In this document: one piece after another, positions 2,378 through 46,604 of the stretch | Position numbering within the stretch: the stretch's first letter is position 1 | Layout of the letters: the number at the start of each line of letters is the position of its first letter | Assembly (NCBI RefSeq): GCF_001633165.1 | Contig: NZ_CP015418.1 | Span: 3,720,001 to 3,784,000, forward strand | Direction: 5' to 3' | From: Rhodovulum sulfidophilum DSM 1374 | GTDB lineage: Bacteria > Pseudomonadota > Alphaproteobacteria > Rhodobacterales > Rhodobacteraceae | DNA length: 64,000 bases | The notes under the pieces: model-generated | The model's input: only the letters and a program-made list of their open reading frames with translations | Database searches by the model: none | Told to the model about the DNA's origin: nothing | Translations under genes and position numbers: made by a program

Positions 2378-3988
2378 TCACTCATCGAGCCCGGCCAGCG
2401 CGTTGGCGAAATCCTCCGGCTCGAAGGGCGCGAGATCGTCGATCTGCTCGCCCAGGCCGATGGCATGGATCGGCAGCCCGAACTTGTCGGCCAAGGCCAC
2501 CAGCACGCCGCCCTTGGCGGTGCCGTCGAGCTTGGTCATCACCAGCCCCGAGACATCGGCAAGGTTCCGGAAGATCTCGACCTGGCTCAGCGCGTTCTGG
2601 CCGGTGGTCGCATCCAGCACCAGCAGCGTGTTATGCGGCGCGGTCTCGTCGCGCTTGCGGATCACCCGCACGATCTTGGCCAGCTCCTGCATCAGATCCT
2701 GCCGGTTCTGCAGCCGCCCGGCGGTGTCGATCATCAGAAGGTCGGTGCCCTCGGCCTCGGCCCGGGCCATGGCGTCGAAGGCGAGGCTGGCCGGGTCGGC
2801 GCCCTGCGGCGCGGTCATCACCGGCACCCCCGCGCGTTCGCCCCAGACCTGAAGCTGTTCGACCGCCGCGGCGCGGAAGGTGTCGCCCGCGGCCACGATC
2901 ACCGACTTGCCCGCATCGCGGAACTGGCTGGCGAGCTTGCCGATGGTGGTGGTCTTGCCCGAGCCGTTCACGCCGACCACCAGAACCACCTGCGGCTTCT
3001 TCGGATAAAGCGGCATCGGCCGCGCGACCGGCTCCATGATCCGGGCAATTTCCTGGGCCAGCAGCTCCTTGATCTCGTCGACCGAAAGCCGCTTGCCGAA
3101 CCGGCCCTCGGCCATGTTCGCGGTGACCCGCATCGCGGTATCGACCCCCATATCGGCCGAAATCAGCAACTCTTCGAGGCTTTCCAGCATCGCATCGTCA
3201 AGCTCGCGCCGGATCACCGTCTTCTTCGGCTCGGACGCCTTCTGCTCGGAACGCCCGAAGACGCGCCCGAAAAAGCCCCGCCGCGGCGCACCCGCCCCCG
3301 TCTCTTGGCCGGTCTCTTGGCCCATCTCTTCGCCGGTTGCGTCTCCGGCTCCGGTCAGCTCCTCCCGAAACGCGTCCGAAGAGGCGGGCGCCGGGTCCGA
3401 GCGCAGCTCGGTGGGAATGTCAGCGGGGATCTCGTCAGGCACTGACGGCGGAACCTCGCCGGGCCAGTCGGGGGCTTCCTGCGGCGGCTCGGGCGGACGC
3501 TCGGAGGGTCCCGGCGGGATGTTCAGCGGCTCGGGATAAGGAACGGGCGCCGGAACCGGTTCCGGATCGGGCATCGGCACGGGCTCGGGCGCAGGCTCGG
3601 GTTCAGGCGTCGGCACCGGTTCCTCTGGCGCAGGGGTCGGCTCGGGATCGGGTTCCGGCTCCGGGGCGGGCGCAGGAGAGGGTTCCGGCTCGGGGGCATG
3701 GGTCACCGCCTCGGCAGCGCCCAGAACCAGCGGGGTCGGACGGTCTTGCTCGCGCGGCGCCGCTGGCTCCGGTGCGGGCGTGGGTTCGGGGGGACGCTCG
3801 GGCGCGGATTCGGCAGGCCCGGGATCGGCGGGCAGGACCGGGGCGGTCGCAGTCTCGTCGGCACGGGCCGCGGCCGAGGACGCGACCTCTTCCTCGCGCC
3901 CGCCATCGCGCACGATCTCTTCCAGACCCTGCTCGATCTTCGAGGACGACTTGCCGAGCCGCTGTCTGAGCTTGCTGAAAAACGCCAT
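2378..3988 (-). CDS. ftsY: Signal recognition particle receptor FtsY
   Basis: The SRP receptor GTPase, which docks ribosome-SRP complexes at the inner membrane. The 536-residue product starts MAFFSKLRQRLGKSSSKI, a typical amphipathic membrane-targeting helix. A long acidic linker follows, made largely of repeated P-E-P units (about residues 60-175), then the NG domain from about residue 240. G-domain motifs are GVNGSGKT (339-346), DTAGRL (421-426) and TKLDGTAKGG near the C-terminus. The Pro/Glu linker is unusually long and low in complexity, which makes the length larger than many FtsY proteins. No partner gene is adjacent; it converges with the MgtC-like gene. Confidence 0.97.
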   Translation of the reverse strand: MAFFSKLRQRLGKSSSKIEQGLEEIVRDGGREEEVASSAAARADETATAPVLPADPGPAESAPERPPEPTPAPEPAAPREQDRPTPLVLGAAEAVTHAPEPEPSPAPAPEPEPDPEPTPAPEEPVPTPEPEPAPEPVPMPDPEPVPAPVPYPEPLNIPPGPSERPPEPPQEAPDWPGEVPPSVPDEIPADIPTELRSDPAPASSDAFREELTGAGDATGEEMGQETGQETGAGAPRRGFFGRVFGRSEQKASEPKKTVIRRELDDAMLESLEELLISADMGVDTAMRVTANMAEGRFGKRLSVDEIKELLAQEIARIMEPVARPMPLYPKKPQVVLVVGVNGSGKTTTIGKLASQFRDAGKSVIVAAGDTFRAAAVEQLQVWGERAGVPVMTAPQGADPASLAFDAMARAEAEGTDLLMIDTAGRLQNRQDLMQELAKIVRVIRKRDETAPHNTLLVLDATTGQNALSQVEIFRNLADVSGLVMTKLDGTAKGGVLVALADKFGLPIHAIGLGEQIDDLAPFEPEDFANALAGLDE

Positions 3989-6912: not shown

Positions 6913-8175
6913 ATGAACATCCTCATTCTCGGCGGCGGCGGACGGGAACATGCGCTGGCCTGGGCGATCCTGCAGAACCCGAAATGCGACCGGCTGATCG
7001 TGGCGCCGGGCAATGCAGGGATCGCGGCCATCGCCGAATGCGCGACGCTCGACATCGAGGATGGCGGCGCGGTCGCGGCCTTCGCCGAGGAGAACGCGGT
7101 CGATTTCGTGGTGATCGGCCCCGAGGCACCGCTGGCCGCGGGTGTGGCCGACCGGCTGGAAGCGGCAGGCATCCTCTGCTTCGGGCCGAGCCGCGCGGCC
7201 TCGGCGCTGGAAAGCTCGAAAAGCTTCACCAAGGCGATCTGCGATGCCAGCAACGCGCCCACCGCAGGCTATGGCCATTTCACCGATGCCGGGGCCGCGA
7301 AGGCCCATGTCCGCAAGGCGGGCGCGCCGATCGTGGTCAAGGCCGACGGTCTGGCCGCCGGCAAGGGCGTGATCGTGGCGATGAGCCTGGCCGAGGCCGA
7401 AGCCGCCATCGACGACATGTTCGGTGGCGCCTTCGGGGGCGCGGGCGCCGAGGTGGTGATCGAGGAATTCATGGAGGGCGAGGAAGCCTCGTTCTTCGTC
7501 CTTTGCGACGGCACCGATGTTCTGGCCATCGGCACCGCGCAGGACCACAAGCGCGTGGGCGAGGGCGATACCGGCCCCAATACCGGCGGCATGGGCGCCT
7601 ATTCCCCGGCCCCGGTGATGACCGACGCGGTCTGCGCGAAGGCGATGGAAGAGATCGTCAAGCCGACCGTGGCCGAGATGGCGCGGCGCGGCACCCCCTA
7701 CAAGGGCGTCCTCTATGCCGGGCTGATGGTCAGGAACGGCCAGCCTCGGCTGGTCGAATACAATGTCCGCTTCGGCGATCCCGAGGCCCAGGTGCTGATG
7801 ATGCGGCTTGGCGGGCAGGCGCTCGACCTGATGCTGGCCTGCGCCGAGGGTCGGCTTGCCGAGGCGAAGGTCAACTGGGCCGACGACCATGCCATGACCG
7901 TGGTGATGGCGGCGAAGGGCTATCCCGGCGCCTATGAGAAGGGCTCGGTCATCGGCGGGCTCGACGCCCTGCCCGCGGACAGCTTCCGGATGGTGTTTCA
8001 TGCCGGCACCCGCGCCGAGGACGGCAAGGTGACGGCGGCAGGCGGCCGGGTGCTGAACGTGACCGCCCGCGGCGCGAGCCTCGCCGAGGCACGGGAAAAG
8101 GCCTATGCGATGATCGACAGGATCGACTGGCCTGAGGGCTTCTACCGGCGCGACATCGGCTGGCGGGCGCTCTAG
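6913..8175 (+). CDS. purD: Phosphoribosylamine-glycine ligase
   Basis: The second enzyme of de novo purine synthesis, joining glycine to 5-phosphoribosylamine with ATP. The 420-residue product has the N-terminal MNILILGGGGREHALAWAI fold and the ATP-grasp glycine loop VVKADGLAAGKG at 141-152. It also carries EEFMEGEEASFFVLCDG, QDHKRVGEGDTGPNTGGMGAYSP and the metal-binding block VEYNVRFGDPEAQ. Length and motif order are standard. ATG 6913 has an AAAGGCGG-type ribosome site; a longer open frame upstream has no family similarity. It stands alone, as is common in alphaproteobacteria. Confidence 0.97.
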   Translation: MNILILGGGGREHALAWAILQNPKCDRLIVAPGNAGIAAIAECATLDIEDGGAVAAFAEENAVDFVVIGPEAPLAAGVADRLEAAGILCFGPSRAASALESSKSFTKAICDASNAPTAGYGHFTDAGAAKAHVRKAGAPIVVKADGLAAGKGVIVAMSLAEAEAAIDDMFGGAFGGAGAEVVIEEFMEGEEASFFVLCDGTDVLAIGTAQDHKRVGEGDTGPNTGGMGAYSPAPVMTDAVCAKAMEEIVKPTVAEMARRGTPYKGVLYAGLMVRNGQPRLVEYNVRFGDPEAQVLMMRLGGQALDLMLACAEGRLAEAKVNWADDHAMTVVMAAKGYPGAYEKGSVIGGLDALPADSFRMVFHAGTRAEDGKVTAAGGRVLNVTARGASLAEAREKAYAMIDRIDWPEGFYRRDIGWRAL

Positions 8176-8193
8176 CCCCGCCGCGCCCCGGCC

Positions 8194-9090
8194 TCAGATC
8201 AGCAGCACCAGCATCAGGATCGACGCCAGCAGCAGCGCCATGCCGAAGATCTCGGCCGCGCGCAGTTTCTCGTGGAAGACCAGCACCGAGGCCAGGATCG
8301 AGAAGATCAGCTCGATCTGGCCGAGGCTCCGGACATAGGCCGCGTTCTGCAGCGCGAAGGCGGTGAACCAGCCCGCGCTGCCCAGCATTCCCGTCGCGCC
8401 CACCGGCAGCACCGCCCGCCATTTCCGCGCCACCCGGGCCAGCTCGCCCGGTTCGCGCCAGGCCATCCAGGCCGCCATGGCCAGCGTCTGCATCATGGTG
8501 ACACAGCTCAGCGCCAGCAGCGCCCGCATCAGCGCATCCTCCGAGGCGACCTGCAGCGTCGCGCCGCGATAGCCGATGGCCGACAGCCCGAAGAACCCGC
8601 CCGCCAGCAGCCCGAGCCCCAGCGCGCGCCAGGACATGCCGCCCCAGCCCCCCGGCGGACGCGACAGCGCGATGACGCCCAGCACCCCGATGGCGATGGC
8701 CGCCATCCCCGGCGCCGAAACCGGCTCGCCCAGCAGCAGCGCCGAGAAGGCCGCGACCTGGATCACCTCGGTCTTGGTGAAGGCCACGCCGACCGCGAAG
8801 GAGCGTTCCGAGAACAGCGCGACGGTCGCGAAGGTGGCGATGATCTGCGCCAGCCCGCCGGTCGCGGCATGGGCCCAGAAGGCAGGCGCGATGCCGGGCA
8901 GCGCCTCGCCCCGGACCGCCATCAGGCCCGCCAGGCACAGCGCAGCAAGCGGCGCCGCGAAGACGAAGCGCGAGAATGTCGCCCCGGCGGTCGAGAGGCC
9001 CAGCCCCCGCAGCCGTTTCTGCAGCATGAAGCGGACGGTCTGAACCGCCGCCGCCCCGATCGTCATGATCACCCAGAGATCCATGGACAT
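8194..9090 (-). CDS. DMT-superfamily (EamA) permease
   Basis: A 298-residue membrane protein with about ten hydrophobic helices in two EamA repeats. The first ends around SERSFAVGVAFTKTEVIQVAAFSALLLGEP, the second around QIELIFSILASVLVFHEKL, the typical helix positions preceding conserved glutamates. It starts MSMDLWVIM; the second Met at 9084 is an equally plausible start. It converges with purD, with 18 bp between stops. The transported metabolite is unknown. It differs in sequence from the DMT permease at 914-1819, so the two are not a recent duplication. Confidence 0.85.
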   Translation of the reverse strand: MSMDLWVIMTIGAAAVQTVRFMLQKRLRGLGLSTAGATFSRFVFAAPLAALCLAGLMAVRGEALPGIAPAFWAHAATGGLAQIIATFATVALFSERSFAVGVAFTKTEVIQVAAFSALLLGEPVSAPGMAAIAIGVLGVIALSRPPGGWGGMSWRALGLGLLAGGFFGLSAIGYRGATLQVASEDALMRALLALSCVTMMQTLAMAAWMAWREPGELARVARKWRAVLPVGATGMLGSAGWFTAFALQNAAYVRSLGQIELIFSILASVLVFHEKLRAAEIFGMALLLASILMLVLLI

Positions 9091-9193
9091 CCTCGCCGCG
9101 CCCGCCTCCGCTCGGCGAGGCGCAGCCTGTTGCGCGCAGCCGGTGCCGGTGCCGTCCCCGGTCCCTTCCCCGGGGCCGTCGGAGCCGCCTTGC

Positions 9194-10307
<1,114 letters not shown>

Positions 10308-10648
10308 CACGCGGCGCGGCCCCCTGTGACAAGCGCCGCCCCCGCCATAGCCGCGGCAGAGCGGACCCGAGGCGGAGGCCGTGCCGCCCCCAGCAGTCTT
10401 CCCCGGCAATCCGCGCAAGCCGGGCGATGCGCCCGGGCCGCCGCTCCGGCCCCGGCTCGGAGGGCGTGGACCGGCCCCGCTCCGGGCGCCCGGACGCGAG
10501 TGCGGAAACGGCGCCCCCCTTCTTTGACAGTTTGCAACAAGGGGTCCGCCGGGTATGCTTTACGCTGCGGGACCCGAAAAGGACGCAAAAGCGCAGGCCG
10601 GAGCCCGCAATACCCCCGGCATATCGGGGCGTAACGGGGAGGAGGCCC
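10308..10648 (+). other. Intergenic region upstream of the TRAP operon
   Basis: No gene is supported in these 341 bases. They run from the GNAT stop to the TRAP operon. The first 200 bases are very G+C-rich and open in several frames without recognisable protein. The last 130 hold the probable promoter of the TRAP operon and an AACGGGGAGGAGG ribosome site just before its ATG. Confidence 0.6.
10532..10559 (+). promoter_or_regulatory. Candidate sigma-70 promoter of the TRAP-amidase operon
   Basis: TTGCAA (10532-10537) and TATGCT (10554-10559) are separated by 16 bases. A perfect TTGACA occurs 8 bases further upstream (10524-10529), but its spacing to TATGCT is 24, too long. Transcription would start near 10566, leaving a leader of about 80 bases. 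This is based on consensus only. Confidence 0.45.
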
Positions 10649-11779
10649 ATGACAGACATGTCCAACATGAACCGTCGTTCGTTCCTGAGGCGCAGCGCGC
10701 TGGCGGGCGGCGTCGCCGGAACCGGCGCGCTGGCCGCGCCTGCCGTTCTGGCCCAGGCGCCGATCGTCCTGAAAATGCAGACCTCCTGGGGCGCATCGAA
10801 CATCTGGGACGAATTCGCCCGCGACTATGCCCGCCGCGTCGATGAGATGTCGGGCGGGCGGCTCAGGATCGACGTGCTGCCCGCGGGCGCCGTGGTCTCG
10901 GCCTTCCAGGTGATGGATGCGGTCAATGACGGCGTGCTCGACGCCTCGCATTCGGTCTGCGCCTATTGGTACGGCAAGAACAAGGCGGCGTCGCTTTTCG
11001 GCACCGGACCGGTCTTCGGCGGCTCGGCCACGACCATGCTGGGCTGGTTCTACGCCGGCGGCGGCGACGAGCTGTTCCGCGAACTGACCCAGGATGTGAT
11101 GGGGCTGGATGTCGTGGGCTTTCTGGGCTTTCCGATGTTCGCCCAGCCCTTCGGCTGGTTCAAGGACGAGGTCGACACCGTCGCCGACCTGCAGGGTTTC
11201 AAGTACCGCACGGTGGGGCTGGCCGCCGATCTGATGGCCCGGATGGGGATGTCGGTCGCCCAGCTTCCGGGCGGCGAGCTGGTGCCCGCGATGGAACGCG
11301 GGGTGATCGATGCCTTCGAGTTCAACAACCCCTCGTCGGACAAGGATTTCGGCGCCCAGGACGTGGCCAGGCACTATTACCTGGCCTCCTATCACCAGGC
11401 CTCGGAAAGCTTCGAATTCCTGTTCAACCGGCCGTTCTTCGAGGATCTCGAGCCCGATCTGCAGGCGATCCTGCGCTACGGCGTCGAGGCGGCCTCGACC
11501 GCAAATACCGCCAAGGCCATGGACCGCTATTCGGCCGACCTGCAATGGCTGCAGGACGAGGCGGGGGTGACCGTGCACCGGACCTCGAAGGAGATCCTCG
11601 ATGCCCAGCTTGCCGCCTGGGACGAGCTGATCCCCGAGCTCGAAGAGGACGCCTTCATGAAGAAATGCCTCGACAGCCAGCGCGCCTGGGTCGAGCGCGT
11701 GACCTTCTACGAGGTGATGAACGCGCCCGATTACACGCTGGCCTACGACCACTACTTCCCCGGCCGGCTCAGGCTCTGA
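10649..11779 (+). CDS. TRAP transporter substrate-binding protein (DctP type, Tat-exported)
   Basis: The periplasmic solute receptor of a tripartite ATP-independent transporter. The 376-residue product has a twin-arginine signal, NRRSFLRRSALAGG, ending APAVLAQ near residue 36. The mature part is DctP-like with MQTSWGASNIWDEFARDYARRVDEMSGGRLRIDVLPAGAVVSAFQVMDAV and the ligand-anchoring region RTVGLAADLMARMGMSVAQLPGGELVPAMERGVIDAFEF. It resembles the 2-oxoacid-binding TakP branch of Rhodobacter more than the C4-dicarboxylate DctP, but the ligand is not determined. It is the first gene of an operon with the small permease, large permease and amidase genes. Confidence 0.92.
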   Translation: MTDMSNMNRRSFLRRSALAGGVAGTGALAAPAVLAQAPIVLKMQTSWGASNIWDEFARDYARRVDEMSGGRLRIDVLPAGAVVSAFQVMDAVNDGVLDASHSVCAYWYGKNKAASLFGTGPVFGGSATTMLGWFYAGGGDELFRELTQDVMGLDVVGFLGFPMFAQPFGWFKDEVDTVADLQGFKYRTVGLAADLMARMGMSVAQLPGGELVPAMERGVIDAFEFNNPSSDKDFGAQDVARHYYLASYHQASESFEFLFNRPFFEDLEPDLQAILRYGVEAASTANTAKAMDRYSADLQWLQDEAGVTVHRTSKEILDAQLAAWDELIPELEEDAFMKKCLDSQRAWVERVTFYEVMNAPDYTLAYDHYFPGRLRL

Positions 11780-11849
11780 GCCGGTCCCGGGGCGGGTGCC
11801 CCCGGCCGCCGACGCGCCGGGGGGCCTTCATGGGGCGCGGGGAGGTTTC

Positions 11850-12434
11850 ATGGTCGGGTTCATCCGTTTCGCCGACGCGCTGTCGGCCTGGTTCGGCAAG
11901 GCCTTCGCCTGGCTGGTCGTGCTGATGGCACTGGGGACCGGCTACGAGGTCTTCGTGCGCTACGTCCTGAACAGCCCCACCGCCTGGGCGCTGGACGTGT
12001 CCTTCATCATGTACGGGACGCTATTCATGATGGGCGGCGCCTATACCCTGTCGCGGGGCGGCCATGTGCGGGGCGATTTCCTGTACCGGCTGTGGCAGCC
12101 CCGGACCCAGGCCATGGTCGATCTGGTGCTCTACATCATCGCCTTCTTTCCCGGCGTGCTGGCGCTGATCTTCGCGGGCTGGAAATACGCCGCGCGGTCA
12201 TGGCGCTATGGCGAGGTCTCGGTCAACAGCCCGGCGGGCATCCCGATCTACCAGTTCAAGACCGTGATCGTGGTCGCGGGCGTGCTGCTGTTCATCCAGG
12301 GCATCGCCCAGGTGATGCGCTGCCTCCTCGCGATCCGCAGCAATGAATGGCTCGAGGCCGAGGAGGACATCTTCGAGACCGAGGACATCCTGATGCGCGA
12401 GGCCGACAAGGCCGAGAGGGGACCGCATATATGA
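11850..12434 (+). CDS. TRAP transporter small permease (DctQ type)
   Basis: A 194-residue four-helix membrane subunit. The DctQ signature GTGYEVFVRYVLNSPTAWALDVSFIMYGTLFMMGGAYTLSRGGHVRGDF covers helices 2 and 3. The C-terminus is acidic (LEAEEDIFETEDILMREADK). ATG 11850 was chosen over ATG 11796 because GGAGG sits just upstream and it begins directly on the amphipathic helix before the first membrane segment. It starts 70 bp after the receptor gene and overlaps the large permease gene by 4 bases (ATGA), indicating translational coupling. Confidence 0.92.
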   Translation: MVGFIRFADALSAWFGKAFAWLVVLMALGTGYEVFVRYVLNSPTAWALDVSFIMYGTLFMMGGAYTLSRGGHVRGDFLYRLWQPRTQAMVDLVLYIIAFFPGVLALIFAGWKYAARSWRYGEVSVNSPAGIPIYQFKTVIVVAGVLLFIQGIAQVMRCLLAIRSNEWLEAEEDIFETEDILMREADKAERGPHI

Positions 12435-39258: not shown

Positions 39259-39333
39259 TGGGGCGTAGCCAAGTGGTAAGGCACCGGTTTTTGGTACCGC
39301 GCACCGTAGGTTCGAATCCTACCGCCCCAGCCA
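39259..39333 (+). tRNA. tRNA-Gln (TTG anticodon)
   Basis: A 75-base cloverleaf with an encoded CCA. It has acceptor TGGGGCG/CGCCCCA, discriminator G, D-arm GCCAAGTGGTAAGGC, anticodon loop TTTTGGT with anticodon TTG, and T-arm TAGGTTCGAATCCTA. Its 3' end is the left border of the genomic island: a truncated integrase begins about 110 bases downstream, as in many tRNA-integrated elements. I found no second copy of the tRNA 3' sequence that could serve as the other attachment site. Confidence 0.95.
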
Positions 39334-39396
39334 ATCACACTATAAATTTATATACTCCCAATGGGGTAGCCATTGATCAAGCGGCCGGCCTGCCGT

Positions 39397-39430
39397 CACC
39401 ACGTCGTGGTGGTTCACAAACTGGTTCACA
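39397..39430 (+). repeat. Palindrome plus 8-bp direct repeats near the integrase remnant
   Basis: CACCACGTCGTGGTG (39397-39411) is a 7-bp-arm palindrome with a central T. GGTTCACA occurs at 39411-39418 and again at 39423-39430. Such clusters next to an integrase can be recombinase or excisionase binding sites, but here they may simply be remnants of coding DNA. Confidence 0.3.
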
Positions 39431-39444
39431 TCATGCGCGGTGTA

Positions 39445-39620
39445 GAACGCGCGAACCGTCGAGAAAGTGGGGGCTTCATCTCGTTCGCAGAAACGGGATC
39501 TTCTACTTTCGTCATCGTCGGCCCGAAACAATCCGCTGCCTCGGCGCGCCCGCGTTTCTGTCGGTTTCGCTACGCACCCACCTCCTCGCCGAAGCGGTAA
39601 AGCGGCCGGCCGACCTGTGA
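39445..39620 (+). pseudogene. Truncated tyrosine recombinase (integrase), N-terminus only
   Basis: In the frame ending at 39620 the sequence reads KWGLHLVRRNGIFYFRHRRPETIR and then FLSVSLRTHLLAEAVKR. This matches the N-terminal arm/SAM-like start of phage-type integrases (consensus LxRRNGxFYFRRRIP...ISLRTxxxxEARR). All the core-binding and catalytic parts are missing because the IS3-family end at 39618 interrupts the gene. The position, just downstream of tRNA-Gln and in the same direction, is standard for an integrase of a tRNA-targeting island. Confidence 0.7.
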
Positions 39621-39847
39621 ACCGCACCGGGTTTGCCGGAGGCTCCAACTCCTGAGCAAGATGGAGCATCATGAGCAAGAGGACGAACAAGTTTTCGCCC
39701 GAACCGCACGAGCGTGCGGTGCGCCTGGTCCTCAACAATGAGGATCAGCATGGATCGCGCTGGCAGGCAGTCATGTCGATTTCCGCGAAGATCGGCGGTG
39801 CGCCCCAGACACTGAATGAGTGGGGCAGGAAGGCCGAGGTCGACAGC
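39618..39847 (+). mobile_element. Left end of an IS3-family element with start of orfA
   Basis: TGAACCGCACCGGGTTTGCC (from 39618) is a typical inverted-repeat end of IS3-family elements of the IS407-like group. The ATG at 39671 begins MSKRTNKFSPEPHERAVRLV, and AKIGGAPQTLNEWGRKAEVDS is the helix-turn-helix of OrfA. The element stops abruptly after that serine, where HsdM sequence starts. The rest of the IS, including orfB and the right end, has been deleted. Confidence 0.85.
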
Positions 39848-41821
39848 AGCATCCCCGCCTGCGTCATCGTCCTGCGTCAGCAGAAGCATGACGGCGCGAA
39901 CCTCGTTTCCGGCAAGCCCGCCGACCGGCAAGGCAAGGTTCTCTTCATCAACGCCGACCGCGAGTATTTCGAAGGCCGCGCTCAGAACCACCTGATGCCC
40001 GAGCATATCGAGAAGATCGTCACCACCTTCGAAGAATACCGCGAGATCCCCGGTTTCTCGACCATCGTCGACATCGACACGCTGGAAGCGAATGACTGGA
40101 ACCTCAACATCCGGCGCTACGCCGACAACGCGCCGTCGCCCGAACCGCATGACGTGCGCGCCCACCTTGTCGGCGGCATCCCGAAATCGGAGGTCGAAGC
40201 GAAGGCAGAGCTGTTCAAGTCCCACGGCCTGATCGCGGAGAAGGCGCGCGACATGCTGCGGCATTACGTGACCAATCTCTTGCCGAACGGATATAAGGCG
40301 CAGGTGGTGGCCTATAGTCGGACGGCGGTGGTCCGATATCAGGCTGCGTTTCTCGTTGCGCGTGATGAGTTGATGGCAGAGGCCGAAGCGCTTTCCGACT
40401 ATGACAAGGCGATGGACGATGAGGTGCTTTGCACCAGATCGGCGGCGGTTCAGGCATTGGTACAGGCCTGGCGGTATCGCGAGACGTTGGAGAAGATCGA
40501 GTTCGCGGCGATCATGTCAGGCGGCAACAATGATGATGCATCTTGGAGGCAATGGACTGACGGGTCTGCACAGGAGATGCGGATCAAACGGTTCAAGAAA
40601 CCCTTGTTCCACAAGGATGCCACCAAGTCGGATCCGCTGGCTTTCCTGATCGTCAAGTCCATGCTGCTGACAGGGTTCGACGCCCCGATCGAAGGTGTGA
40701 TGTATCTCGATCGTTCTATTCGGGAGGCCGAGCTGCTGCAGGCGATCGCCCGTGTGAACCGTACCGGTTTCGGAAAAACCTGCGGTATCGTTGTCGATTA
40801 CTTCGGCGTCGCGCATCACCTGAAAGCTGCCTTGGCTGCCTATTCCGACGAGGATATCGACGGGGCGCTTGTCAGCTTGAATGATCAGATCCCTGTGCTT
40901 CAGGATCGGCATATCCGGGTCATCGAAATTTTCAGACGTGCTGGACTTGATGACCTTTCGAATGACGAAGATTGCCTGCAAGTGCTTTCGACAGAAAAAG
41001 CCCGAGCGGAGTTCACCGTTAAGCTCAAGGATTTCCTGAAGTCTCTGGAAATCACCTTTCCTCGGCCTGAGGGATTACCCTTCGTGCAGGACGCCAAGAG
41101 ATTTGCATATCTGCAGGCACGCGCCCGCAATCGGTACCGCGATATGCCGGTCATCGGGGCAGATGTCGGTACCAAGGTACGGAAGCTGATCGATGATCAC
41201 GTCATCTCCCTTGGCATCGACCCGAAGATTCCACCTGTGCAACTGACGGATGCAGAGTTTGACAATCAAATCGGGCAAGCCGCGGGCGGCCGAGCCAAGG
41301 CATCCGAGATGGAACACGCGATCCGCTCTCACATACGCAAGAACCTCGAAACAGATCCGGTCCGTTTCAGGAAGATGTCAGAGCGGCTGAACGATATTTT
41401 GAAAGGCTTAGGCGAGCAGTGGGACCAGATCATCGAGCAGTTGCAGGCCATCATCGACGAGCTTCGCGGCGAAGCCAGCGACCGTGACGAAACCACCCTG
41501 GACATCCCCAAGGTCTATCTGCCTTTCCTCCGCACGGTCCTGGCGGCGAGCTCTGCAGACCAAACTACCTCAGCCGACCAACTTCGCGCATTGCACGAAG
41601 TGACACGGATTGTGGTGGACCGTATTATCGAAGAAATCGGCGCGAACCGTTCTTTGTGGAACAGTTACAAGATGGCCGATCAAGAAAACCTCAGATCAGA
41701 GATTTTTGAGATCATCTTCGACGCGCAGATCCAGGGGTTCGGCGTCGACGAGGCGGAAGCCCTTGCAGATCAGTTGATGCAGCAGGCGAAAGCCAACGAT
41801 GATAAGCTGCGAGCAGCCTGA
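39671..41821 (+). pseudogene. Chimeric open frame: IS3 OrfA start, HsdM C-terminus, HsdR C-terminal part
   Basis: One uninterrupted 716-codon frame made of three pieces. Residues 1-59 are IS3 OrfA. Residues 60-186 are the end of a type I DNA methylase: ACVIVLRQQK, GKVLFINADREYFEGRAQNHLMPEHIEKIVTTF, NDWNLNIRRYADNAPSPEPHDVRAHLVGGIPKSEVEAK. From about 187 on it is the end of a type I restriction subunit, with helicase motifs SMLLTGFDAPIEGVMYLDRSIREAELLQAIARVNRT and the C-terminal HsdM-contact region. The nuclease domain, the Walker A part and the methylase catalytic motif are missing, so it cannot restrict or methylate. The stop overlaps the next ATG. Expression would need a promoter in the IS end. 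Confidence 0.85.
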
Positions 41822-42573
41822 TGTCCAAGCTCCCCATGACGCCTATTCGCACTGGCGGAAAGCCCGCTCGCGTGAGCGAACACCGACTGGAGATTGATGG
41901 TCTTGCTTTTGACGTTCACCGCAGTGATCGCCGTAAAACCATGCAGATCACGGTGGAACGTTCCGGGGACCTGTCGATAGTTGCGCCTTCGACAGTTCCC
42001 GCCGATCAACTGGTCAGCTTCGTCGAAGACAAATTGGTCTGGGTCCACACCAAGGTCGAAGAGAAAGCCAGGCTTCAGCAACGTGCTCCGATGAAGGAAT
42101 TCGTCGAGGGTGAAGGCTTTCTGTACCTAGGCCGGAGCCACCGACTGCGCCTTGTTGATAACCAGTTGGTTGACCTCAGTCTAAAGAACGGTCGGTTCTG
42201 CCTGCGACGCAGCTCTATCCACCGGGGGCGAGACATATTTGTCTCGTGGTATACGCAGAGAGCTCAGCGATGGTTCGAAAAGCAGGTCGCCGAGTTCTCC
42301 AACCGTATGGGTGCGAATGTGCAGGAGGTAAAAGTTCAGGATCTTGGATTCAGGTGGGGGTCTTTCGGCTCCGATGGTCGCGTTTCATTTCACTGGAAGG
42401 CCATCCTCCTACCTCCTCGTATTGCCCAGTACGTTGTGATCCATGAATTGGCGCATGCTCATCACCCAGACCATTCAGCCAGTTTCTGGGTCAAGGTCGA
42501 GCAACATCTTCCTGATTGGCGCTGGAGAAAGACCTGGCTTGCAGAAAATGGAATTCAAGTTGAAGGGCTATAA
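41821..42573 (+). CDS. YgjP/DUF45-type metallopeptidase
   Basis: A 250-residue predicted zinc metallopeptidase. The N-terminal part (DVHRSDRRKTMQITVERSGDLSIVAPSTVPADQLVSFVEDKLVWV) and YLGRSHRLRLV are typical of the YgjP fold. The zinc site is H208-E-L-A-H212 in IHELAHAHHPDHSASFW, with H218 as probable third ligand. Such genes often follow hsdR in type I restriction operons, and here the start codon overlaps the stop of the HsdR-like frame (TGATG). The gene is complete although its partner is wrecked. Substrate and role are unknown. Confidence 0.88.
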   Translation: MSKLPMTPIRTGGKPARVSEHRLEIDGLAFDVHRSDRRKTMQITVERSGDLSIVAPSTVPADQLVSFVEDKLVWVHTKVEEKARLQQRAPMKEFVEGEGFLYLGRSHRLRLVDNQLVDLSLKNGRFCLRRSSIHRGRDIFVSWYTQRAQRWFEKQVAEFSNRMGANVQEVKVQDLGFRWGSFGSDGRVSFHWKAILLPPRIAQYVVIHELAHAHHPDHSASFWVKVEQHLPDWRWRKTWLAENGIQVEGL

Positions 42574-42616
42574 GCTGATTGAATTTTATCTCCGCGGAAA
42601 TTGAAGAGGATAGAAC

Positions 42617-44026
42617 GTGACTGTAACCAAAATGATCAAAGATCCAATTCATGGGGCCATTGAATTTGAAGGCGACTTTGAGAACTCCCTGAAAGGGATG
42701 CTTTCAGATAAATTTTTCCAGCGGTTGCGTCGAGTCAAGCAGCTCGGATTTTCGGATTTCGTTTTCCCATCCGCCACCCATTCTCGGTTTGCCCATTCTC
42801 TCGGGGTTTACGCGGTAGCGAAGCGTATGCTGAGGGTCGTCGAGCCGGAGGTGCGGAATGGAGACTGGTCAAATGACGGTCGAGCTTGTTTGGCGGCCGC
42901 CCTATTGCATGATGTTGGCCATGGAATGTTCAGCCACGCATTCGAAAACGCCGCAAAGTCGTATCATGCCAGTAGGGATGAGGGATCTTCCGAGGGCCTC
43001 AAGGATGCCGCTAACCATGAAAAGGTTACCAGCCGAATTTTGACATCTTCGTCGATCCAAGAAAAACTGGTAGAAATTGGCGGGACTGAATTTCCCCAGG
43101 CTGTTTCTGACATGATCGACAAGAAGGACAAGACCTGCATCTACACTTCGATCGTTTCAAGTCAGTTGGATGCCGACAGATTAGATTGCGCGGCGCGAGA
43201 TCCATATTTTGCAGGCGTGTCCTCCGGAAGGACGGATTTGAATTGGTTGATGAGAAACCTTCAAGTAGGCGACGGGCCGAATGGAAAATTCCTTTTTGTT
43301 GACAGCAAGTCCTATATTTCTATGGAGCAATTCACAGTAACGCTTTTTCACCTATACCCAACAATATATCTCCACAAGAAGACCCGAGGTCTTGAATTCC
43401 TATTTTCCAAACTTCTCTGTCGCATTTTTGAAATTGTCGAAGGCGGCCAAGCGGCCAACGCAGGCATCAGCAAATCTCACCCACTTGCGCGTTTCATACA
43501 GTCACCGAGCGATCTCGAGAATGCACTACTGCTTGATGATACTCTATTCTGGGGCTCTTTACATCTCTTCCGGGATGCGCCTGATAAGACAGTCCGGAAC
43601 ATTGCGAATGATTTCTTTCAGCGCAAGATCCCTCCAATGGTCGATGCTTGGAAACTCGCGGATGAGATAGCTGCAAGCTCTCCTTCGTTTACGGGCGTAC
43701 TTGCTCATGACCGCGTTGCGAAAATTGAACATGCTTGCGAAGTAGCCTGCAAAAAGGTCCTTGAGTCTCACGATGCGGTCTTGAAGGGATGCTATCACGA
43801 CACCTATACTCGACCCATCTACAAACCAAAATTTGAAAAGGGCGATGCCCAGCAGATTAATGTAAAAGTTGGAGGTGACTACCTGGACATTGCGGCTATT
43901 TCGCCATTGGTGGCGAGTGCCGCCTCATTCAACATCCATCGTGTATATTATGATGAGCGAATTCACAATCAGGGCAATGAACTGACGGCACGCTTGCAGG
44001 GCGCACTAAGAGAGGCGCTGGACTGA
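42617..44026 (+). CDS. HD-domain phosphohydrolase (SAMHD1/YdhJ-like)
   Basis: A 469-residue cytoplasmic protein of the HD superfamily. It starts KMIKDPIHGAIEFEGDF. The metal-binding residues are H60 in HSRFAHSLGVY, H98-D99 in LLHDVGHGMFSHAFE and the Asp in SSQLDADRLDCAARDPYFAGV, the order seen in COG1078 and SAMHD1-type dNTP triphosphohydrolases. The region after 290 is not recognised. It lies 43 bp after the metallopeptidase gene. Its DNA is markedly richer in A+T than the chromosome, which indicates recent transfer. Such enzymes can deplete dNTPs in phage defence, but this is inference. Confidence 0.85.
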   Translation: MTVTKMIKDPIHGAIEFEGDFENSLKGMLSDKFFQRLRRVKQLGFSDFVFPSATHSRFAHSLGVYAVAKRMLRVVEPEVRNGDWSNDGRACLAAALLHDVGHGMFSHAFENAAKSYHASRDEGSSEGLKDAANHEKVTSRILTSSSIQEKLVEIGGTEFPQAVSDMIDKKDKTCIYTSIVSSQLDADRLDCAARDPYFAGVSSGRTDLNWLMRNLQVGDGPNGKFLFVDSKSYISMEQFTVTLFHLYPTIYLHKKTRGLEFLFSKLLCRIFEIVEGGQAANAGISKSHPLARFIQSPSDLENALLLDDTLFWGSLHLFRDAPDKTVRNIANDFFQRKIPPMVDAWKLADEIAASSPSFTGVLAHDRVAKIEHACEVACKKVLESHDAVLKGCYHDTYTRPIYKPKFEKGDAQQINVKVGGDYLDIAAISPLVASAASFNIHRVYYDERIHNQGNELTARLQGALREALD

Positions 44027-44163
44027 ATTCAGACGATTTCGATGTTGCGGAAGGCGTTCTGGAACCCAGATCACGGCTTCCGAAGATAAAGAGTGAAGGA
44101 CAAGCTGGATGCGGGGCGGCTTTGAAGACCTGCATCATGAGCGATTTGTTCTGGCTGACGCAG

Positions 44164-44315
44164 GCGCAGATGGGCTTTGTTGCACAATCGAAGAAATCAG
44201 CGGCTGCAGCGGCTTGTACGAAGGGTTTCTTGCTCGCCAAGCAGCGCAATGTCCGGCCTCGAAAGCCACTCGGCGACGCAAGATCCTTCGATTATGCAAC
44301 AAAGCTGCGCAGATG
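44164..44315. repeat. 9-bp target-site duplication flanking the MITE
   Basis: GCGCAGATG occurs at 44164-44172 and again at 44307-44315, directly outside the element at 44173-44306. Nine bases is the target duplication length of IS903-type IS5 elements. Removing the element and one repeat restores the IS5 transposase reading frame, which confirms the insertion. Confidence 0.9.
44173..44306. mobile_element. 134-bp IS903-like MITE
   Basis: The ends are inverted repeats: GCTTTGTTGCACAATCGAAG (44174-44193) and its complement with one mismatch (44286-44305). The outer sequence GGCTTTGTTG is the start of IS903/IS5-type inverted repeats. The 90-base interior has no coding capacity of its own. It is flanked by a perfect 9-bp duplication. 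It is non-autonomous and would need a related full-length IS transposase to move. Confidence 0.88.
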
Positions 44316-44424
44316 GAGCACCTGCGTCCATTCTTTCCGAAATGCCGTGGTATGCCACACGTGGATGACAGGCTGTCATTGCGCAGGGGCCGGACAGGCT
44401 CTTCTCGATCTGCGCTTGCAGCGA

Positions 44425-46377
44425 ATGGCGACTTCGCTTCCGATCCCGAAACGGCTATGGAGCCGCGTATCGCAACACGTGGGGCGTTTGAGCACACAGG
44501 AGGTGTACTTGCTGCGGAAACTCGCCCTTACAGTGGAGCCCGTTGACCGCGAGACGCTCCCGTCGCTGTTTTCGCGCATGGCAATCCTGAATGGAACCGA
44601 CGCTGCCAACTTCGCCCTCGATCTCGGTACCACCTTTCGGCGTATCCTGGAGCAGGACGAAGAGGCCGTCGCGATTTTTGCAGAACGCGCAGGGCTGTCG
44701 GCCATGCAACTCGCCGAGCTGCTCTCCTGGACAGGTGAACGCATCGGAGACGTCCGGATGCGGTTTCGGAAGGAAGTTTTCGTCTCGCGGGCCCTACGAA
44801 ATCCGATCATTCGGGGCTGTCCACACTGCATGCGTGAGCATGCAGCCGATCAACCCCATCCATTGCGGTACATTGCCTTGCGGGGGGACTGGCTCTGCAG
44901 AGGTGTTGATATTTGCCACCGTCACCACCATCCGCTGGTTCCCTTGTGGTCTAGCTCGCGCCCCATCGAACGGGATGATATCGGCGCGCGATTGGCGGAA
45001 ATCCTGCCGGACCTGCGAGCAGGATCATTCGACTGCGCGCGCATTGATCCTACCGACTATGACCTTTGGCTTGATAAGCGTCTATCGCAGGGTATCGCTG
45101 CGGACGACACATGGCTGGCGTCACAGTCGGTGTTTCCGGCAATCACACTCTGTGAGTTCATCGGTGCCGCCTTGCTGCGCAAACAGGGCAAGGCCCCGGA
45201 CGATCGGCGCGCCAAGGCCACGGGCTTTGCCTATGTCTCGCAAGGCCCTGATGGGGTCCGAGCGGCTCTGGACATTCTTATGCGATCGGAGGACGGAGGC
45301 CACATCGTAACGCAGGGAGAGTTGGGTCCGCTCCTCCGACACCTTAGGGGCAGCTATCTTGATGACGATACCTTTGCGGGCTTTCGCAGCATCCTTCGTG
45401 ACTATTTTCTGGAAATATGGCCGTTGGCGCCAGGGGATGACCTTCTCGGGCAGGCCGTGACAGAGCGGCGCCTCCACTCCCTCACGTCAGCATCCAAGGA
45501 AACCGGCATCGGCCCGGCTGTGCTGGATGATTTCCTGACAGAAGCGGGCGCGTTTGCGCCCGGTGACAAGCGTGCCGATGCCCGCAAGACCTTTGATGCG
45601 AAGGCCTGGCAGCACATTCTTGATGAAATCCCGACACTGGTTGGTCCCATTGCGCTGCGAAAGGCAATCGGCGCAACCCTGGCCGAACTGAACGGGTTGA
45701 AGGCAGACGGTGTCCTCGTCCCGAGGACCAATGTCGCAACGATCAAATCGCCTTGGCGGATTGCGGACGGCCAAGCTCTTCTTGAGGAGCTGGAGGCCTA
45801 TGCGCAGCCGGTTGCCGCAGAGGAGCCAGGGTGGGAGAGGATCCAACTCGTTCACAAGCGGCTGGACCTTCCTGTTGGCGAGATCATTGCGGCCATCCGG
45901 ACGGGTTCTCTGCGCCTGGGTCAGCGTCCTGATGTGTTCGGCTACCACGGGCTTGTGGTGGAAATCACTGAGGTTGCTGCGTTCAAGGCGAAGGCCGCGC
46001 CGAAGCGCAAGCCATCGACCGACCAGGGAGAGGTGACCGCAGCGGCCTTCGCCCGATCGGCGGGTATTCGGGGGAAAGGTCAATTCCTGGCTCTGATCGA
46101 AGGTGGTTACACGCCTGCGATGTTGGTTTTGAATCCTACGACCAGGCGTCGGGAATGGCGCATGAGCCGCGACGATATCGCTGCGTTCGAGGCCATCTAT
46201 ACGACGCCATCGATGCTGTCGGCCGAAACCGCTGCGCATTTGAACACGATTCGGGCCGTTCTGCAGAACGAAGGTATCCAGCCGTTCCGCCCGAACGGCT
46301 TGGATGTGGGACCGGTCTATCTTCGCAACGCTGTTGAGCCGGTTGTGGCACTCCTGAAATCTCAGGGAGGTAAGTGA
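44425..46377 (+). CDS. TniQ-family protein (Tn7/Tn5053-like transposition targeting)
   Basis: A 650-residue protein. VEPVDRETLPSLFSRMAILNG matches the N-terminal TniQ motif, and the zinc ribbon is C132-x2-C135 (GCPHCMREH) with C164-x2-H167 (DICHRHHHPLVPLW). TniQ/TnsD proteins choose target sites for Tn7-like transposons together with TnsC/TniB and TnsB/TniA. No such partners are present here. The 400-residue C-terminal part has helix-turn-helix-like segments (for example AAAFARSAGIRGKGQFLALIEGGYTPAM) and is not recognised. ATG 44425 is the first plausible native start; the frame is open back to 44122 through the MITE and IS5 remnant. Confidence 0.8.
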   Translation: MATSLPIPKRLWSRVSQHVGRLSTQEVYLLRKLALTVEPVDRETLPSLFSRMAILNGTDAANFALDLGTTFRRILEQDEEAVAIFAERAGLSAMQLAELLSWTGERIGDVRMRFRKEVFVSRALRNPIIRGCPHCMREHAADQPHPLRYIALRGDWLCRGVDICHRHHHPLVPLWSSSRPIERDDIGARLAEILPDLRAGSFDCARIDPTDYDLWLDKRLSQGIAADDTWLASQSVFPAITLCEFIGAALLRKQGKAPDDRRAKATGFAYVSQGPDGVRAALDILMRSEDGGHIVTQGELGPLLRHLRGSYLDDDTFAGFRSILRDYFLEIWPLAPGDDLLGQAVTERRLHSLTSASKETGIGPAVLDDFLTEAGAFAPGDKRADARKTFDAKAWQHILDEIPTLVGPIALRKAIGATLAELNGLKADGVLVPRTNVATIKSPWRIADGQALLEELEAYAQPVAAEEPGWERIQLVHKRLDLPVGEIIAAIRTGSLRLGQRPDVFGYHGLVVEITEVAAFKAKAAPKRKPSTDQGEVTAAAFARSAGIRGKGQFLALIEGGYTPAMLVLNPTTRRREWRMSRDDIAAFEAIYTTPSMLSAETAAHLNTIRAVLQNEGIQPFRPNGLDVGPVYLRNAVEPVVALLKSQGGK

Positions 46378-46526: not shown

Positions 46527-46604
46527 TGGCGGGCCGTGGAGGACTCGAACCCCCGACCTGAGAATTAGAAGTTCCCTGCTCTAATCCAGCTGAGCTAACG
46601 GCCC
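46527..46604 (-). tRNA. tRNA-Arg (TCT anticodon)
   Basis: On the minus strand a 78-base cloverleaf with encoded CCA. It has acceptor GGGCCGT/ACGGCCC, discriminator G, D-arm GCTCAGCTGGATTAGAGC, anticodon stem GGGAA/TTCTC with loop CTTCTAA (anticodon TCT), and T-arm CGGGGGTTCGAGTCCTC. It marks the right border of the island and is oriented toward it, so either tRNA could have been the original integration site. Confidence 0.93.

Follow-up and report, generated by a model that had tools for sequence, protein, structure and literature searches.

Does an open reading frame that runs without interruption through pieces of three different genes encode a selected protein, or is it chance debris? The question is raised by a frame of 716 codons in Rhodovulum sulfidophilum DSM 1374, which joins the start of an IS3-family transposase gene to parts of the hsdM and hsdR genes of a type I restriction cassette. 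We analyzed it within a window of 64,000 nucleotides (NZ_CP015418.1, positions 3,720,001 to 3,784,000), and conclude that it is very probably a recent, non-functional relic of such a cassette, and thus ordinary debris. The features of the locus are given below in window coordinates.

39259..39333, + strand: tRNA-Gln (TTG); alignments of the window with four same-genus genomes stop at the 3′ end of the tRNA
39408..39617, + strand: remnant of a gene for a DUF6538-type protein, cut by the left end of the IS; a Thioclava protein matches it over 70 aa at 54% identity
39618..39644, + strand: left terminal inverted repeat of an IS3-family element; inverted match at the opposite end of IS copies L105, L113 and L110
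39671..39847, + strand: first 59 codons (helix-turn-helix part) of an IS3-family orfA, decayed; identified by IS comparison, PF01527 and PDB 2rn7
39847..39851, + strand: junction 1 (orfA/hsdM); the parent IS and hsdM share CGGCA (IS of L010) or CGGC (IS of L105) in the same codon phase
39849..40232, + strand: hsdM fragment, approximately codons 444-569 of the 872-aa ORF of Paracoccus homiensis, without the motifs DPCCGSGG and NPPF
40228..40232, + strand: junction 2 (hsdM/hsdR); 5-bp shared word CCTGA, at which the window matches both parents in the P. homiensis locus L022
40229..41821, + strand: 3′ half of hsdR, from approximately codon 560 of 1088; T1R_D3-like and C-terminal regions kept
41821..42573, + strand: ygjP, intact, encoding a predicted metallopeptidase (PF01863, 7.1e-52); fourth gene of the cassette

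The frame itself (39671..41821, + strand) begins with ATG, has zero internal stops in the ORF listing and is composed of 59 codons of IS3-family OrfA, a central hsdM segment of about 127 codons and the final 530 codons of hsdR; judged from sequence, these three origins are certain. Pfam searches of the chimera returned an N6_Mtase match at residues 59-154 (profile positions 221-306 of 311), a T1R_D3-like match at residues 304-377 and a T1RH-like_C match at residues 437-646 which, at 24.4 bits, falls slightly under its cut-off of 26.8, while residues 3-59 resemble IS629 OrfA (PDB 2rn7). DNA comparison places the IS fragment at 39617-39851, the hsdM piece (39849-40232) at 92.4% identity to P. 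homiensis L022 and 91.6% to Thioclava L008, and hsdR together with ygjP (40221-42576) at 90.2% identity to P. homiensis L022. A sequence-only reading of this DNA had described a single in-frame, three-part frame of 716 codons with junctions at about 39847 and 40229. That description is borne out: the frame is present and stop-free, each part has been matched to its parent, and the DNA comparison gives junctions at 39847-39851 and 40228-40232. The same reading took the methylase piece for the end of the gene, which is incorrect, as the piece comes from the middle of hsdM, and in L022 some 300 codons of the gene still follow it.

Scanning named genomes with HsdR of P. homiensis returned 51 loci. 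In the closest intact relative (L022, P. homiensis DSM 17862, NZ_FOHO01000012.1), the gene order is hsdM, hsdS, hsdR, ygjP, where hsdS is assigned from its place in the order, by comparison with the annotated L008. The window shares with this cassette the order of the remaining genes and an overlap of 1 nt between the hsdR stop and the ygjP start (TGATG; window 41818-41823), and differs from it in having lost hsdS, the greater part of hsdM and the 5′ half of hsdR, and in having the start of an IS orfA fused ahead. Among the 25 loci L022-L046, the same overlap is found in 23; L043 and L044 are short contigs of 4.5 and 4.4 kb with hsdR and no ygjP match. Its occurrence in all loci that are readable for both genes suggests that the predicted metallopeptidase may be a fixed partner of this type I family. 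Furthermore, in those loci whose sequence extends to this point, resemblance to the window does not continue past the end of ygjP (42566-42579), and the cassette thus appears to be transferred as one unit. Type I cassettes with a nearby M48 metallopeptidase gene have been published for an E. coli defence island (PMC12255303).

The window is not the only place where this cassette family has decayed. In plasmid p2 of Thioclava sp. GXIMD4215 (NZ_CP149516.1, L008), the source of the 91.6% match to the hsdM piece, hsdR is also broken by an internal deletion. Unlike the window, L008 retains an annotated hsdS, and its deletion (11190-11952) has fused hsdR, cut near codon 130, with a central portion of ygjP, in a phase other than that of the M48 reading frame; this decay is independent of that in the window. 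Two differing copies of the cassette family are apparently split over four contigs (L043, L044, L070 and L071) in one genome of Thioclava atlantica.

The relic is positioned 3′ of tRNA-Gln. Blastn alignments to four same-genus genomes (L099-L102) end at 39333-39335, with nothing matching beyond the tRNA in a further 0.6-13.6 kb of sequence; a fifth same-genus stretch (L103), taken at another site, had no match to the window. Beyond the tRNA lies the DUF6538-type remnant, which scores 25.7 bits, slightly under the DUF6538 cut-off of 27, and which we take to be the N-terminus of an integrase. Its Thioclava counterpart comes after an identical 77-bp tRNA stretch, and the alignment between the two proteins stops at the final residue preceding the IS. 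Since the DUF6538-type N-terminus stops exactly at the left inverted repeat of the IS (39618), the IS inserted into that gene. Compared with 12 other IS places, the IS stretch shows 84-92% identity to eight over 234-238 bp and 77-82% to L113, L013 and L017, and resembles L106 over 111 bp only. It shares the left inverted repeat and the first 59 codons with IS629 OrfA (PDB 2rn7) and with IS copies on Paracoccus and Rhodovulum plasmids, and differs from such IS3-family elements in being a fragment: the locus holds the left end and 59 orfA codons, and no remaining part of orfA, orfB or right end was found there, as a functional element would have. The helix-turn-helix match is also eroded, with PF01527 scoring 17.6 bits in the window vs 26.9 in the IS relative L010 (cut-off 24.1). 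An internally shortened related IS copy is found at 3375.5-3376.2 kb of the same contig.

Both junctions fall on short repeats. At junction 1, the window is unlike both parents at 39848, which leaves 3 bp common to all three sequences as they stand; at junction 2, the shared word is 5 bp, and the loss relative to L022 is approximately 3.86 kb, comprising the remaining hsdM, the whole of hsdS and the 5′ half of hsdR. Joints on repeats of 3-5 bp and 5 bp look like microhomology deletions. We ruled out, at the DNA level, a rearrangement that moved the missing parts elsewhere in the genome: the search for the lost cassette parts found nothing beyond a pair of short, distant matches at 3868 and 3871 kb, 140 bp (76% identity) and 123 bp (71%) long. 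No hsdS was found at the locus, and at the DNA level nothing in the R. sulfidophilum genome matches hsdS of P. homiensis. The AdoMet-binding motif DPCCGSGG and the NPPF motif lie upstream of the region of L008 that is equivalent to the hsdM piece, and HsdM is incomplete in the chimera. In the full-length HsdR P0002, HSDR_N (7-224) and SWI2_SNF2 (301-539) both precede the break at approximately codon 560, and neither the nuclease (HSDR_N) nor the SWI2/SNF2 domain was found by Pfam in the chimera. HsdS provides target recognition, and the methylase motifs, the nuclease and the helicase domain are needed for modification or restriction. Since all of these, including the first helicase domain, are gone, no restriction or modification step is expected of the frame.

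These observations are best explained by the following sequence of events. A cassette of the type hsdM-hsdS-hsdR-ygjP lies beside tRNA-Gln and an integrase remnant, and an IS3-family element entered the integrase gene, as the cut integrase and the left end of the IS show. A first deletion then probably fused the IS orfA with the central part of hsdM at the repeat of 3-5 bp, and a second probably fused hsdM with the central part of hsdR at the repeat of 5 bp. The sequence-only reading had proposed two independent deletions that each preserved the frame; the two in-frame joints on short repeats stand, and we infer the separateness of the deletions, as we do the order of the events.

That a frame survived both joints is not remarkable. 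Across three sets of parent sequences, 48-51% of the words of at least 4 bp, and 52-57% of those of at least 5 bp, that are shared between the parent frames are in phase at each joint. Base-shuffled copies gave 33%, while codon-shuffled copies gave values approximately equal to those of the real sequences, and the in-phase excess is therefore explained by codon-position composition (GC3 0.77-0.85). Ten pairs drawn from five other window genes, three of which have lower GC3, gave 38-54%. From the in-phase fraction at each joint, the chance that both are in frame is approximately 0.23-0.32, or about one in four. An impressive in-frame fusion of three genes can thus arise without selection. Given that 38-57% of the shared words of at least 5 bp in the gene pairs we counted are in phase, vs the one third expected without codon structure, in-frame chimeras should be a fairly common form of debris in GC-rich genomes.

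The joints are apparently unique, as far as comparison with other genomes can tell. The joint was found in none of 15 other genomes of the genus. The second joint, searched for as DNA across the joint, was found in none of 393 other genomes of the family, and the joint was found in none of 389 other genomes of the order at an E-value limit of 1e-60, where the family and order sets overlap, are drawn from larger groups and had at most two candidates per genome scored in full in the rows listed. Three genomes (G354, G431 and G483) carry hsdM-like and hsdR-like pieces about 4 kb apart as separate ORFs. A protein search with the full frame matched 7444 of 7998 proteins scored; among the 120 listed, only P0001 has both MTase and HsdR Pfam labels. 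A search with residues 30-260 matched 7090 of 7999 scored, and among the 120 listed P0001 covers 87% and the others at most 70%. P0001 (656 aa) stands for a protein cluster; because it begins with the first codon of the hsdM piece, it spans the second joint only and is silent on the first. Its four member sequences lie on three contigs, that of the window included, and more than one assembly or strain may therefore have the frame. Debris of this kind is evidently taken into databases as protein. We rejected the shorter HsdR proteins P0009, P0037, P0045, P0057 and P0103 as a family of C-terminal halves with the same break, since their starts differ (by eye) and none begins with hsdM. In the genomes searched, and among the proteins listed apart from P0001, no conserved chimeric family with the same junctions was found in other species, and among the open-licence titles listed none describes an OrfA-HsdM-HsdR fusion. 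The homologue check proposed in the sequence-only reading thus returned no same-junction homologue in the other genomes of the genus, family or order that were searched.

Substitution rates on the window branch were estimated with a custom codon-model script on iqtree2 trees, using 9-11 sequences per piece including the window and at most 60 iterations. The relatives used (9 of 24 for hsdM, 8 of 26 for hsdR and 9 of 25 for ygjP) were near ones and some more distant; L043 and L044 (hsdM 91%) were left out, as was the partial L070 for hsdR, and the orfA test dropped L015 because of a stop, L106 as a minus-strand copy similar over only part of the piece, and L002 as identical in location to L105. 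Evolution of the orfA piece is neutral, in that omega = 1 was not rejected (omega 1.41, background 0.11, 2dL 8.0; against omega = 1, 2dL 0.10). Without L105 (minus strand), its omega is 0.55 (2dL 6.0) and omega = 1 was again not rejected. In the same test, omega reached its upper bound on two other branches, L017 and L105, and L017, itself a decayed IS copy, exceeds the window in extremity (2dL 14.1). The hsdR piece looks relaxed on the window branch (omega 0.103, background 0.036, 2dL 11.6; omega = 1 rejected, 2dL 35.1), with omega over background in all three thirds (2dL 4.0, 8.8 and 2.5), and the hsdM piece does not (omega 0.018, background 0.039, 2dL 1.1; omega = 1 rejected, 2dL 25.5). The ygjP gene is constrained (omega 0.061, background 0.044, 2dL 0.3; omega = 1 rejected, 2dL 27.5). 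For the sequence-only reading, plain debris meant dN/dS near 1 in all pieces; this holds for orfA, and does not for hsdR or hsdM.

Control branches indicate how far these values can be read. On the eight other terminal branches of hsdR, omega reached at most 0.047 and 2dL at most 4.5. For hsdM and ygjP there were 18 control branches, some long ones of which look saturated (ygjP L041 and L027); among them, intact ygjP genes reached omega 0.136 (L022) and 0.111 (L024), with 2dL 4.4 each, and the highest 2dL was 8.0 (ygjP L027), toward lower omega. Because an omega of about 0.1 on a short branch and a control 2dL of up to 8.0 occur without truncation, the 2dL values of 8.0 (orfA) and 11.6 (hsdR) are not exact probabilities, and a moderately raised omega is, alone, no proof of decay. 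In direct counts for hsdR, unique changes, amino-acid to silent, number 18:31 in the window vs 10:36, 15:51 and 21:67 in the three nearest relatives, whereas those of hsdM (2:6) and ygjP (3:9) are not raised. The excess of approximately nine amino-acid changes in hsdR leads to about 0.4 expected stops (3.2% of mutations being stops and 71% amino-acid-changing), so that zero stops is unremarkable; no stop, gap or frameshift was found in 126 + 529 + 250 codons compared with L022, L023 and L024. If the hsdR branch is treated as a mixture of constrained and free evolution, approximately 7% of it is free, and the truncation would therefore be recent. An omega that is raised but not at 1 is expected if most of the branch predates the truncation.

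These results bear on what, if anything, keeps the frame open. The sequence-only reading had suggested a selected protein, in which the OrfA helix-turn-helix targets DNA or the HsdM and HsdR parts poison a resident type I enzyme. The open frame, the lack of relaxation in the hsdM piece and an hsdR part that starts ahead of the T1R_D3-like region, such that a folded C-terminal module is conceivable, are in keeping with this idea. The orfA piece that would supply the DNA binding is neutral and its helix-turn-helix score eroded, however, and a homologue with the same joints was found in none of the genome sets searched. Poisoning would need a close relative to bind, and the apparently intact resident type I cassette (L114) is only 28% identical in HsdR (over 669 aa) and 34% in HsdM (over 528 aa) to the P. 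homiensis subunits, which weakens the idea further; to our knowledge, type I families this far apart are not expected to exchange subunits. Selection for a DNA-binding or poison protein is thus without support. We rejected it because the OrfA piece is neutral and no same-joint homologue turned up in the genomes searched, and we give it next to no credence.

We also consider it improbable, if less so, that the protein is dispensable and that the frame stays open because it serves as a translated leader feeding the overlapping ygjP start. Ribosomes finishing at the hsdR stop would reach the start of ygjP, and events that destroy the frame would then silence ygjP. This would fit the overlap seen wherever both genes are readable and an intact, constrained ygjP, as well as a second truncated hsdR in the genome (L115, 574 aa) that also runs into an intact ygjP-like gene. 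If it were true, relics of the 3′ half of hsdR would stay open for the sake of ygjP, and the metallopeptidase would outlive its restriction system. Against it, the truncation appears recent, so that the open frame and the constraint on ygjP say little about the time since; the deletion in L008, in the same cassette family, extends into ygjP itself; and the translational coupling is read from the overlap. What counts against a relic is that the hsdM piece is not relaxed and hsdR is far from omega = 1, both of which are expected if the truncation is recent, but a constrained product would look similar. Also on that side are the uninterrupted codons relative to L022, L023 and L024 and the possible spread of P0001 beyond a single assembly or strain. 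The chance-debris option of the sequence-only reading, which the lack of same-joint homologues and the neutral OrfA piece support, is the one that we favour: the chimeric frame most likely does nothing as a protein, and it is still open because its parents were open, because in-phase repeats are over-represented between coding frames and because there has been too little time for stops.

The genome holds other type I genes. A 412-aa ORF occupies the place of hsdS in another type I cassette, and another HsdM-like stretch (L007) is 33-34% identical to the P. homiensis HsdM. The second truncated hsdR (L115, 7739-10190, contig C1) is likewise a C-terminal half followed by its overlapping ygjP-like gene, and over 2627 bp this unit shares 99.3% identity with a portion of the L114 cassette (7929-11724), 1.7 Mb away. 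One genome thus carries two pairs of an hsdR 3′ half and ygjP, from distant type I families (window 40229-42573 and L115 7739-10190). Elements of about 1.25 kb that are 78% alike are found near both L114 and L115, and the one at L114 has transposase domains.

A scan for promoters and terminators gave two and three sites, respectively, vs 1.1 and 3.0 expected, which is near chance level. On the 3′ side of ygjP, the window contains a gene with an HD domain (dGTPase-like) and a gene with a TniQ domain (42617-46377), followed by tRNA-Arg at 46527-46604. The DNA that follows tRNA-Gln in genome G008 is found at 140.6-144.6 kb of the contig of the window, vs 3759.3 kb for the tRNA of the relic. If the contig is circular, the G008-like DNA would lie approximately 0.5 Mb further on, which would point to a large insertion or rearrangement at tRNA-Gln.
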